Source: Planctomycetota bacterium (GTDB lineage: Bacteria; Planctomycetota; MHYJ01; JACPTZ01). Taken from it: DNA of 64,000 bases. Within the stretch, counting starts at the first letter, position 1. Each line of letters starts with the position of its first letter. The stretch covers positions 1-64,000 of the forward strand of contig JACPTZ010000073.1 in assembly GCA_016192525.1 (NCBI GenBank). Reading direction: 5' to 3'. This document shows, piece by piece, positions 743 to 29,142 of this stretch. The notes under the pieces were generated by a model. That model did no database searches. It was not told the DNA's origin and worked only from the letters and a program-made list of their open reading frames with translations. A program made the position numbers and the translations under genes.

Positions 743-1660
743 ATGAACTTCCAAGAGATCATCCTCCGCCTGCACCAGTACTGGTCCGACCAGGGGTGCG
801 TCCTCTGGCAGCCCTACGACCTCGAAAAGGGCGCCGGCACCTTCAATCCCGCCACCTTCCTGCGCTCCCTCGGACCCGAGCCGTGGCGGGCCGCGTACGT
901 GGAGCCCTCCCGACGCCCCACCGACGGACGGTACGGGGAGAACCCGAACCGTCTCCAGCACTACTATCAGTACCAGGTGGTGCTCAAGCCGGCCCCGAGG
1001 AACTCCCAGCAGCTCTATCTCGACTCCCTCCGGGCCCTCGGCATCGATCTGGTCGCCCACGACTGCCGGTTCGTCGAGGACGACTGGGAGTCGCCGACGC
1101 TGGGCGCCACCGGCCTCGGCTGGGAGGTGTGGCTCGACGGCATGGAGGTGACCCAGTACACCTACTTCCAGCGGATTGGCGGATTCGATCTCAATCCGAT
1201 CACCGTCGAACTCACCTACGGGCTCGAACGGATCGCCATGTTCATCCAGCGCAAGTCGAGCGTCTTCGACCTCGTCTGGGCGCCGGGAATCACGTACGGC
1301 GAGATTCATCACGAGGATGAGGTGCAGTACTCGAAGTACAACTTCGAGGCGGCCGACACGGCGCTCCATCTTCGACTGTTCGACGACTACGAGAGGGACG
1401 GCCGGCGGCTGCTCGAAGCGGAACTCGTCCTCCCGGCCTACGACGCCGTGATGAAGTGCTCGCACACCTTCAATCTGCTGGACGCGCGACGGGCCATCAG
1501 CGTCGCCCAGCGGGCCGCCTATATCGGCCGGGTCCGCAAGCTGGCCTCCGCGGTGGCGAAGCAGTACCTGGCCCTCCGGGAACGCCTCGGACATCCGCTC
1601 CTCGTGGCGACGGCCGACACCCAGACGGACATCCCTTCGACGAAGGAGCCGGTGGCATGA
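743..1660 (+). CDS. glyQ: Glycine--tRNA ligase alpha subunit
   Basis: Charges tRNA-Gly together with the beta subunit of the bacterial alpha2beta2 enzyme. The 305-residue product starts [19 protein letters not shown], the invariant N-terminus of GlyQ, followed by the class II core ([19 protein letters not shown], then [21 protein letters not shown]). The usual length is about 290-300 residues. The beta subunit gene is not next to it and must be elsewhere. The stop overlaps the start of the next gene as ATGA, so the selenoprotein behind it is probably translationally coupled. Start chosen on family alignment; the preceding bases lack a strong Shine-Dalgarno sequence. Confidence 0.97.
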
Positions 1661-2151
1661 AAATCGGAGATCCAGTCCCCGACCTCGCCCTCACCGACCT
1701 CGCCGGCCACGCCGTCGACTGGCGCAAGACGGCGGACGAATCCCCGCTCTTCCTGGTGTTCTTCCGCGGCGCGTGGTGACCCCCCTGCCGCTCGAATCTC
1801 GTGAAGATTCAGAAGAACCTGCCGGAGTTTCAGAGACGCGGGGCGCGCGTGGCCGGGGTGAGCGGAGATCATCGGACGAGTCTCCGCAAGATGCGCGACC
1901 GGGACGAATTCGGCTATCCGATCCTGCGGGCCGGCGATCCGTCCGTCTTCCGCACGTTCGACGCGCTGAAGACGGAGAGCGACATCTTCCGCGGCCTGGC
2001 CCTCCCCTACCCGACCGGGCTTCTCATCGACGCCGCCGGCCGGCTCGTCTGGCAGATGACACGCCGGTCGCTCATCTTCCGCGTCACCCCCCGCCACCTC
2101 CTCGCCGCCTTCGATGAGAAGTACCCCGACGCGGCGAAGGCGAGGCCGTAG
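1657..2151 (+). CDS. Peroxiredoxin-like selenoprotein (Sec at residue 41)
   Basis: AhpC/TSA-type thioredoxin-fold protein, about 164 residues if TGA 1777-1779 is read as selenocysteine. The frame is continuous on both sides of the TGA: before it FFRGAW, after it [12 protein letters not shown], which gives an active site W-U-P-P-C where relatives have WCxxC. Downstream the fold continues ([13 protein letters not shown], then [17 protein letters not shown]) to TAG. Family knowledge: peroxiredoxin-like selenoproteins with a UxxC site reduce peroxides or act as thiol oxidoreductases. A SECIS-like hairpin sits 14 nt past the TGA. The start ATG overlaps the glyQ stop. The alternative is a nonsense-mutated pseudogene, but the TGA replaces exactly the catalytic Cys and no other lesion is seen. 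SelB/SelC lie outside the window. Confidence 0.85.
1777..1810 (+). promoter_or_regulatory. Recoding UGA and SECIS-like hairpin
   Basis: TGA at 1777-1779 is followed by GAATCT (1794-1799), loop CGTGA (1800-1804) and AGATTC (1805-1810), a perfect 6-bp stem. A G lies in the second loop position. The loop starts 21 nt after the UGA, within the range described for bacterial SECIS elements. It lies inside the coding sequence, as bacterial SECIS elements do. Confidence 0.65.
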
Positions 2152-5029: not shown

Positions 5030-6919
5030 ATGCGCCAACCGATCCTCGCCCTCGTACTTCTCGCCGCCATCCTCCCCCTTCGCGCCCAGGAGGCGCCCGC
5101 GGCGGACTGGACGATCCTGATGTACGCAATCGCCGACACCGATCTCGAAGACTACATGGTGCAGGACCTCGCCGAGATGGCCCTGGCCCGACCCTCCGAC
5201 CGGGTCCGCGTACTCATCCAGTTCGACCGCGCCGAGGAGGACGACGAGGACGAGGGATACTCCTCCGAGCCGGTCGGAGAGATCGGCGATTTCGACAGCG
5301 TCAAGCGGCTCACCCTGAGGGACGGGAAGATCGTCGAGGTCTCCGACCTCGGCGAGTTGAACATGGGCGACCCGAAGACCCTCTCAGATTTCCTCGCCTG
5401 GGGCCTGAAGACGGCGCCCGCAAAGCGATGCGCGCTCATTCTCCAGGACCACGGCCTCGGATGGGCCGGATTCGGCGGCGACGGCAGCCACGAGGACGAC
5501 GACCTCCCGCTCGACGAACTCTCCGGCGCCATCGCGAGCGGGCTGAAACAGGGCGGCGTCGATCGCCTGGACCTCCTGTGCTTCGACTGCTGCCTCATGG
5601 GCGATCTCGACGTGATGACCTCGATGCAGAAGTTCGCCCGATACCTGATCGCCTCCCAGGACCTGGAGCCGGGTGAGGGGTGGGACAACGACGCCTGGCT
5701 CAGCGCCCTCGCCGAACATCCCGAAATGCCTCCGGAGGCGATCGGGCGAGTCATCTGCGACACCTTCCTGAAGTCCTATGAAGAGAGCGATGACGAGGAG
5801 ATGAGACTCTCGGGGACGGACGTGACGCTCGCCCTCGTCGACCTGTCGAAAGTGCCGAGGGTGACGGCGGCGGCGCAGGCCCTGGGGCAGTCGCTCGCGG
5901 CAGCCCTCAAGAAGAAGGACCCGAGGGCGGACTGGGAGCGGATCGCGCGCGCCGGTCTTGAAACAGAGCAGTACGATGCCGGAGACGAACCCTCGTACGT
6001 GTTCGATCTGCACGACCTGGCCTCCCGGCTGAAGGGGGTGGGATGCGACGCGGAGGCGGCGGAGGCGGTCCGCGCCGTCGAGGCGGCCGTCATTCACCAC
6101 GTGGGAGGTCGGAATCGCCCGAAGGGCTCGGGAATCTCCGTCTACCTTCCCCGCGAAGTGGACGCGTTCGACGAACTGTATCGCGACTCCGCCTTCTCGG
6201 CCTCGTGGGTCTCGATGATCGAGGCCTATCTGGCGATCCAGGCCGCGGACGAGGAGCCGCCGGAGGTTTCCGACCCGATCGCCGCCGACGACACCCTCGC
6301 GAAAGGGGAATCGACCCCGGTGAAAGCCGAGGCCCGCGGAAGCGACATCGCGGAAACCTACTTCGTCCTCGCCCAGCCCTCGGGCGACGAGCAAGTCATC
6401 CTCGGCATGCTTCCGGCCACGTTGAACGGCTCCCGGCTCGAATCGAATTTCAGACGGTCGTGGCTGGCCATCGGCGACGCCGGGCACCAGGTGCTGGCAC
6501 CGATCGTCTACTACGAGAAGATACCGGGAGAGGCGGACAGGTACTCGGTGGATGTGGACGCCGAGTATTGCGGGCCCAAGGGCAAGCGATGGCAGGACAT
6601 CATCCTGACGTTTGAAGTGACCTGGAGCGAGAAGGAAATCTCGGGCAAGTTCGTCTCCGCGTATCGCACCTCGGAAGACGGAACGACCCCGATGGAACTG
6701 CGAGAGGGGGGGAGGATCCGGCCGGTCTACACGGTGGTGACCGCAGAGGGAGAAGAGGAGGACCGCACGCTGGAGAACGCCCCGACACTGGTCGTGGACG
6801 CAGAGGGGATCCGGATGCTGGAGACCGATCTGCCCGCCGGAACCTACGACGTGGGCTTCCTCGCGGTGGACCTCGCGGGGAACATCGGGGAGGCGTATGT
6901 GGGGATCGAGGTGGAGTAG
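5030..6919 (+). CDS. Secreted clostripain-family (C11) cysteine peptidase
   Basis: A 629-residue protein with a signal peptide (about 1-19, cleaved after LRA). The C11 core begins WTILMYAIADTDLEDYM. The catalytic His is H141 in ILQDHGLGWAG and the catalytic Cys is C188 in FDCCLMG, where the family has FDACLMG. Family knowledge: clostripain-like peptidases cleave after basic residues and are often activated by self-cleavage. The C-terminal part (about 410-629) is beta-rich and could be a substrate-binding domain; it ends with a Gly/Asp-rich Ig-like segment. Start at ATG with signal peptide directly following. It probably acts outside the cytoplasm. Confidence 0.88.
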   Translation: MRQPILALVLLAAILPLRAQEAPAADWTILMYAIADTDLEDYMVQDLAEMALARPSDRVRVLIQFDRAEEDDEDEGYSSEPVGEIGDFDSVKRLTLRDGKIVEVSDLGELNMGDPKTLSDFLAWGLKTAPAKRCALILQDHGLGWAGFGGDGSHEDDDLPLDELSGAIASGLKQGGVDRLDLLCFDCCLMGDLDVMTSMQKFARYLIASQDLEPGEGWDNDAWLSALAEHPEMPPEAIGRVICDTFLKSYEESDDEEMRLSGTDVTLALVDLSKVPRVTAAAQALGQSLAAALKKKDPRADWERIARAGLETEQYDAGDEPSYVFDLHDLASRLKGVGCDAEAAEAVRAVEAAVIHHVGGRNRPKGSGISVYLPREVDAFDELYRDSAFSASWVSMIEAYLAIQAADEEPPEVSDPIAADDTLAKGESTPVKAEARGSDIAETYFVLAQPSGDEQVILGMLPATLNGSRLESNFRRSWLAIGDAGHQVLAPIVYYEKIPGEADRYSVDVDAEYCGPKGKRWQDIILTFEVTWSEKEISGKFVSAYRTSEDGTTPMELREGGRIRPVYTVVTAEGEEEDRTLENAPTLVVDAEGIRMLETDLPAGTYDVGFLAVDLAGNIGEAYVGIEVE

Positions 6920-28224: not shown

Positions 28225-29142
28225 TCACTTGCCCGCGAGTTTTTTCCGCAAGGCATAGTCCTTGAGGAGGTCCCGTACGCCGGCGTCCGAGACGTCGGCG
28301 AAGCGGACCTTTCCGGTCTCGTCGATGATGAACGAGACCGGCGTTGTCTTGACGGCCCAGGACCTGGAGAGGTCCCCCTTCACGTCGTGGACCACCGTGA
28401 TCCCCTCGGCGCTCTGCGGCGTGAGGAACTCATTCACCCTCTCGATCGTTCCCCCCTTGGCCACCGTGAGGATGACAAAGTCGGTGTCCTGCTCGCGCTC
28501 GCGCCTGAGCCCCACCACGTTGGGGAAGTCCTGGGAGCAAGCATCGGAGCCCGCCTCCCAGAAATAGACCCAGACGAACTTTCCCTTGAGCGCGGCCAGA
28601 TCGACCGGAATCCCCTTCAGATCGGTGGCGACCAGCTTCTTGGGCGGCTTGCCGATGGCGTCGAGAAAGGGAACTCCTTTCTGGAGCTTCACCGCGCAGG
28701 CGCTCTTCGGGACGCGCGTCACGATCGTCGAGCCCGCCGACCGGACGAGTCCGGCGTCGCCCGAGCGGCTCGCGGCGGACCAGAGCCGGTTCGCCAGCGC
28801 GTCCTTCCAGCCCGCGTCCGAGGCCGATTCCAGCGCCTTCATGAGCGTCTGGACCGCCTCCCGGAAGGCGCCGCGGGCCATCTGGATCCGGGCGAGGTCC
28901 TCGGCGACCCGGTTCTTGAAGTTGGCGTCGAAGTTGGCCCCCAGCACGTTTTCGAGGATCCCCTGCCGCCGCGTGAGTTCGTCGTAGTTCGCCACGGGAT
29001 CTTCGAGAAGTCCATCGAGGCCGTACGACGCCTCCTGATAGTCGGACGATCCCTGGCCCCGCAGGAGCGGTCGACCGGCCCCCGGCGCAACCGTCGCCAG
29101 CGTCAGAAACACCCAGATTCCGAATCGCCCGGCACGCATCAT
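28225..29142 (-). CDS. Secreted thioredoxin-like protein (TlpA/ResA type) lacking the first Cys
   Basis: A 305-residue exported protein: signal peptide (about 8-20, after which GAGRPLLRGQ), a helical N-terminal domain (about 60-130), and a C-terminal thioredoxin-like domain. The latter has FVWVYFWEAGSDACSQDFP, where relatives have WATWCPPC; the nucleophilic Cys is Ser here, leaving SxxC. The fold continues with TPVSFIIDETGKVRF, the cis-Pro region. It may bind rather than reduce, or the Cys may form mixed disulfides. It heads the arg operon with a 10-bp gap to argC. Start has GGAGG overlapping closely. Confidence 0.85.
   Translation of the reverse strand: MMRAGRFGIWVFLTLATVAPGAGRPLLRGQGSSDYQEASYGLDGLLEDPVANYDELTRRQGILENVLGANFDANFKNRVAEDLARIQMARGAFREAVQTLMKALESASDAGWKDALANRLWSAASRSGDAGLVRSAGSTIVTRVPKSACAVKLQKGVPFLDAIGKPPKKLVATDLKGIPVDLAALKGKFVWVYFWEAGSDACSQDFPNVVGLRREREQDTDFVILTVAKGGTIERVNEFLTPQSAEGITVVHDVKGDLSRSWAVKTTPVSFIIDETGKVRFADVSDAGVRDLLKDYALRKKLAGK

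Follow-up and report, generated by a model that had tools for sequence, protein, structure and literature searches.

An in-frame TGA at the active site of an AhpC/TSA-clan redoxin gene of a Planctomycetota bacterium as a probable selenocysteine codon

At the 3' end of glyQ, in a 64,000-nucleotide stretch of DNA from a Planctomycetota bacterium (the window, meaning this stretch at its full length), a frame on the forward strand is interrupted by a TGA at the place where a thioredoxin-fold enzyme has its catalytic residue, which raises the question of whether this TGA ends a protein, marks a broken gene, or encodes selenocysteine (Sec). The window comes from an 83-kb contig (C108) in a bin of 4.18 Mb that comprises 227 contigs and is 82% complete. 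The features concerned are the following.

743..1660, + strand: glyQ, glycyl-tRNA synthetase alpha subunit (PF02091, 6e-145); its TGA stop overlaps the ATG of the predicted selenoprotein gene
1643..1648, + strand: AAGGAG, likely ribosome-binding site of the predicted selenoprotein gene, judged by its sequence
1657..2151, + strand: predicted Prx-like UxxC selenoprotein gene (TGA-read translation, PF00578, full-length homologues, AlphaFold2)
1777..1779, + strand: in-frame TGA, read here as selenocysteine (U41), from the codons of homologues in the same column
1786..1788, + strand: TGC codon of C44, partner Cys in the UxxC motif
1794..1810, + strand: bSECIS-like hairpin, stem GAATCT/AGATTC, loop CGTGA (folding, slot comparison, synonymous-codon control)

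Direct reading of the frame at 1657-2151, from ATG 1657 to TAG 2149-2151, confirmed that it holds a single stop, the TGA at 1777-1779, and that translation through this codon gives a product of 164 aa with U41 in W-U-P-P-C (FFRGAWUPPCR), in coordinates and motif as the preliminary description of the locus had it. The two fragments into which ordinary annotation was expected to split the gene (1657-1779 and 1801-2151) exist as well. G+C content by codon position was 0.70/0.45/0.88 upstream of the TGA, 0.67/0.50/0.89 downstream of it, and 0.67/0.41/0.89 in glyQ; since the values are alike on either side of the TGA and match those of glyQ, both halves look coding, and in the same frame. At least 123 open codons follow 163 of 1548 TGAs in this G+C-rich DNA, and open read-through by itself is weak evidence against chance. 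The evidence that does exceed chance is homology spanning the TGA, together with the recurrence of TGA at one active-site column in independent genomes.

The read-through product matched AhpC-TSA (PF00578) over residues 3-132 (9.6e-22; 77.7 bits against a cut-off of 26). Its closest relatives, found in a search of 99 related genomes, are two full-length homologues: that of G027 has one TGA and 35% identity, and that of G058 has two TGAs and 38% identity. A pattern-based scan of genome contigs for close relatives returned one distant locus only. A wider set of homologues was obtained by searching 392 genomes from the same phylum and was placed in a common alignment. In the column of U41, the catalytic Cys column, TGA was present in 31 distinct homologues (this gene counted) and TGT or TGC in 19; the in-domain TGAs of the 31 all lie in this column, the sole extra one being at +3 in L027. 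Because TGA keeps to one column throughout the TGA homologues, it is very unlikely to have arisen by chance or from a sequencing error. The Cys homologues are continuous open reading frames, and C44 is invariant across 14 aligned relatives (Sec written as C in the alignment). The homologue with the extra codon, L027 / L102 (G058:C255:19259-19720), has two active-site TGAs, in W-U-L-V-U, and is thus of the UxxU form.

A 6-bp hairpin with a G in its loop had been described 14 nt past the TGA, and direct reading confirmed it at 1794-1810: GAATCT (1794-1799) and AGATTC (1805-1810) form the stem around a 5-nt loop, CGTGA (1800-1804), in which the second position is G, followed by U. The stem begins 14 nt after the TGA and the loop 20 nt after it. 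In the published bacterial SECIS model, the apical loop has 3-9 nt with a G in the first two positions, the upper stem has 4-16 bp, the UGA lies 16-37 nt from the apical loop, and the MFE is <= -7.5 kcal/mol (PMC13188914). The hairpin agrees with these rules in stem, loop, G, and spacing and falls short of the energy rule (MFE, -5.1 kcal/mol for 40-45 nt and -7.3 kcal/mol for 47 nt). Comparison of the MFE with dinucleotide shuffles in single-sequence folding revealed no excess stability (z, -0.33 to 0.27; -0.33 for this hairpin) and was uninformative. About 20% of the TGAs in the window precede a stem of at least 6 bp that satisfies the loop and spacing rules, and about 4.6% have such a stem in the narrower slot common to the relatives; on its own, the hairpin of this gene is weak evidence for a bSECIS element.

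Across the family, the hairpin evidence is strong, and the argument is carried by the Cys control. With the slot set at a loop 18-25 nt after the UGA, the slot stem measured 6.3 bp on average in the TGA homologues and 2.8 bp in the Cys homologues (Mann-Whitney P = 2e-7). When codons were swapped for synonyms drawn from the same gene, P was 0.017 for this gene, 8.5e-13 for the TGA genes (Fisher combined), and 0.93 for the Cys genes. All of these P values are on the optimistic side, as the sequences share ancestry and this gene had been seen before the slot was picked. In 12 genes of one register, the six pairs formed in every gene, and five of the six positions varied in pair type, which speaks for consistency and is not an independent test, the genes having been chosen for their register. 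A G-loop hairpin follows most of the TGAs at comparable spacing and is missing after the Cys codons; four TGA homologues (L108, L117, L124, and L125) have no stem in the slot.

Of the four sel genes to which the preliminary description had looked for support, the 82%-complete bin yielded selA and a truncated selB but neither selC nor selD. The selA gene is intact (C17:3200-4570; 571.9 bits against a cut-off of 267.9). The selB gene (C90:3-1619) is cut by the contig start and covers model positions 92-581, scoring 204 bits with TIGR00475 (cut-off, 242) versus 75 bits with EF-Tu models. For selC, a tRNA-Sec model, a stricter scan, and a pattern derived from the tRNA-Sec of relatives were used, and for selD only thiL-type matches were obtained; neither gene was found beside selA or selB on the bin's own contigs. 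Two candidates were rejected: C67:9886-9971 (49.5 bits with the tRNA-Sec model, above the cut-off), which is a tRNA-Ser(tga) by ARAGORN, and a selD candidate on C132, which is thiL. Among the class relatives fetched, selB adjoins selC in G004 (L098) only, and thus the cut end of the selB contig is not a sufficient explanation for the missing selC; we infer that the bin is incomplete at these loci and that selC and selD lie in genome sequence that the bin lacks. Absence of selC would count against selenocysteine in a complete genome, which does not apply here because the bin is 82% complete and its selB is cut.

Where an active-site TGA homologue was confirmed (13 related genomes), selA was present in 12 and selC in 11. 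This co-occurrence of selA and TGA agrees with Sec use without being decisive, since selA exceeds the cut-off in 71 of 99 related genomes anyway. selD scored above the cut-off in 29 of 40 genomes searched, and most of these genes contain one in-frame TGA and probably encode a Sec-containing SelD. One active-site TGA redoxin, L032 (G082:C69:74618-75082), is found in a genome that is 90% complete and has no clear selA or selC, which may reflect incompleteness or something else.

Exactly one TGA was present in 7 of the 14 AhpC-TSA matches in this genome, each time at the active site, with the motifs FWGFWUGPC, FFRGAWUPPC (this gene), FWGTWUGAC, FWGTWUPAC, TTWUGSC, YCUINC, and SYTUPPF. The other six are located as follows.

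L143 (contig C185), L145 (C164), L148 (C203), L150 (C164), L153 (C119), and L154 (C3): six other single-TGA AhpC/TSA-clan genes

The gene with YCUINC is a thioredoxin, that with SYTUPPF is deiodinase-like (PF00837 at 3e-17), and in several of the six the G-loop hairpin is strong (up to 9 bp; MFE, -25.6). These other active-site-TGA redoxins provide strong, independent support for the use of Sec by this genome. A shift of much of the host lineage's redoxin network to selenium, with Sec in half of its AhpC/TSA-clan genes, the deiodinase-like one included, is conceivable, though doubtful; if true, the host would be unusually selenium dependent for its phylum. When the 83-kb contig was crudely scanned for further TGAs in coding-like sequence with redox motifs, no other case was convincing. 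Elsewhere in the window, we observed a Clostripain family peptidase (5030-6919, + strand; PF03415, 7e-38) and an AhpC-TSA-like domain (28300-28653, - strand) with the motif FWEAGSDAC, which is without the first Cys/Sec of CxxC.

These observations allow other accounts of the TGA to be weighed. The codon is one base away from TGC and TGT, and in an ordinary Cys redoxin a Cys codon might have mutated or been miscalled, leaving a pseudogene or a sequencing error. Such an origin is hard to reconcile with a TGA in the same column of so many distinct homologues, with active-site TGAs in six further redoxins of the same genome, with a downstream part that is still conserved and coding, and with a hairpin that goes beyond amino-acid constraint, and we consider it very unlikely. 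A split into two proteins, in which the TGA would terminate a short N-terminal peptide and a second product would restart at GTG 1801, is favored by the fact that both fragments are open reading frames; however, it would break a single thioredoxin-like fold between its initial strands with the catalytic residue and the part from helix 42-53 onward, the Cys homologues show no such break, and GTG 1801 falls inside both the hairpin loop and helix 42-53, all of which makes the split most improbable. In-frame TGAs in several genes would also be expected if TGA had been reassigned to an amino acid genome-wide (code 4 or 25). Yet glyQ terminates at TGA 1658-1660, and with TGA serving as its normal stop the code is not reassigned; moreover, the TGAs within redoxins occur at active sites only, and selA, thiL, and the truncated selB are free of internal TGAs. 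We give reassignment practically no credence. What counts against a Sec codon is that the bin yielded no selC or selD although most genomes searched have selD, that the hairpin energy falls short of the published threshold, and that one TGA homologue belongs to a genome, G082, that lacks a clear selA. The TGA at 1777-1779 very probably encodes the active-site selenocysteine of a thioredoxin-fold enzyme, and the explanation that we favor, with high confidence, is that 1657-2151 is an AhpC/TSA-clan redoxin gene predicted to place Sec at position 41 through decoding of UGA by SelB and a stem-loop.

The product had been described as a peroxiredoxin-like selenoprotein. The TGA/Cys columns, the hairpin slot, selA, selB, and the six other TGA redoxins bear out this description, except that the Sec is not at the peroxidatic position. 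AlphaFold2 predicted a thioredoxin-like fold (pLDDT, 93.2) in which residue 41 directly precedes helix 42-53, and the best PDB matches to the predicted fold were PrxQ/Bcp and ResA. In sequence alignments, the counterpart of U41 is Thr45 in XcPrxQ and the first Cys in ResA, and the counterpart of C44 is the second Cys in ResA and C48, the peroxidatic Cys, in XcPrxQ; this register puts the Sec in the thioredoxin-like nucleophile position. The canonical PxxxTxxC(U) motif is absent: its Thr position is occupied by U41, there is no Pro-xxx-Thr, and C44 alone is in common. That the U41 protein might nonetheless be a functional peroxidase, a selenium peroxiredoxin in activity and not a thiol:disulfide oxidoreductase, is suggested by the Pfam family, by PrxQ/Bcp as the nearest fold, and by C44 at the peroxidatic position. 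Against this stand the alignment of the Sec with the Thr of peroxiredoxins, not with their peroxidatic Cys, and a genuine TxxU peroxiredoxin of a relative, L053, in which U is three residues further downstream, at the peroxidatic position. We regard peroxidase function as unlikely, if not negligibly so, and a thiol:disulfide oxidoreductase role would be at least as likely. L053 (G088:C40:25609-25998) is of the Bcp type, with its TGA in TPGU, and belongs to another selenoprotein family found in this phylum.

With U41 as Sec in a thioredoxin-like position, a mechanism can be proposed. UGA codon 41 would be decoded by SelB with Sec-tRNA(Sec), as directed by the short stem-loop directly after it. 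From its place at the helix 1 N-cap, the U41 selenolate would attack the substrate, either a disulfide or a peroxide, C44 would resolve the product into a selenenylsulfide, and cellular thiols or thioredoxin may reduce the latter.

The selenoprotein gene had also been described as coupled to glyQ. The local overlap is real, in that the glyQ stop (TGA 1658-1660) and the start of the selenoprotein gene share 4 bases (ATGA), and the Shine-Dalgarno-like AAGGAG lies 8 nt upstream of ATG 1657, within the 3' end of glyQ. Conservation of this arrangement was not found: no glyQ was present near other homologues in the stretches fetched, up to 1.5 kb on each side, and a conserved functional association with glyQ was rejected for the loci examined. 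The overlap is most likely incidental operon packing.

In the corrected gene model, two broken open reading frames are replaced and the catalytic residue is restored, and the genome has several predicted redoxin selenoproteins that are easily misannotated. The phylum-wide set amounts to a natural Sec/Cys exchange series at one column, with the hairpin found with Sec and absent with Cys, and may be of use in training selenoprotein predictors and in asking how short or weak a functional bSECIS may be. The understanding of selenocysteine decoding is unchanged.

Among known systems, the best NCBIfam match of the product was NF040769, SelL-related redox protein, which all 14 aligned relatives also matched; its score was 36.9 bits where the cut-off is 120, and by the NCBI rule the product is not a member. 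SelL proper has UxxU. PrxQ/Bcp (XcPrxQ, PDB 5iiz) shares the fold of the U41 protein (TM-score, 0.75), with C44 on C48, but differs in having Thr45 in place of U41, and the PxxxTxxC motif is not found in the U41 protein. ResA/TlpA (PDB 4nmu; TM-score, ~0.7) has its CxxC in register with UxxC; unlike ResA, the U41 protein has Sec for the first Cys and no apparent signal peptide or membrane anchor in its sequence, and it is probably cytosolic. Prx-like thiol:disulfide oxidoreductase selenoproteins have been known since 2005 (PMC1088965, PMC1794560, PMC2398784 ["Prx-like 1"], and PMC13188914), with both UxxC and UxxU listed for the Prx-like family, PF00578 (PMC13188914), and selenoproteins have also been reported for Planctomycetes isolates (PMC4807772). 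The gene at 1657-2151 is like the Prx-like selenoproteins in its PF00578 assignment, in UxxC at the thioredoxin-like position, and in the frequency of Cys homologues, and the UxxU form of its relative L027 is also among the published motifs; it is unlike them in overlapping glyQ and in its distant sequence, with 35-38% identity to the nearest relatives found, the likeness being one of Pfam family and motif. On these grounds, the predicted protein is to be placed with the published Prx-like UxxC/UxxU selenoproteins, as a new and distant member.
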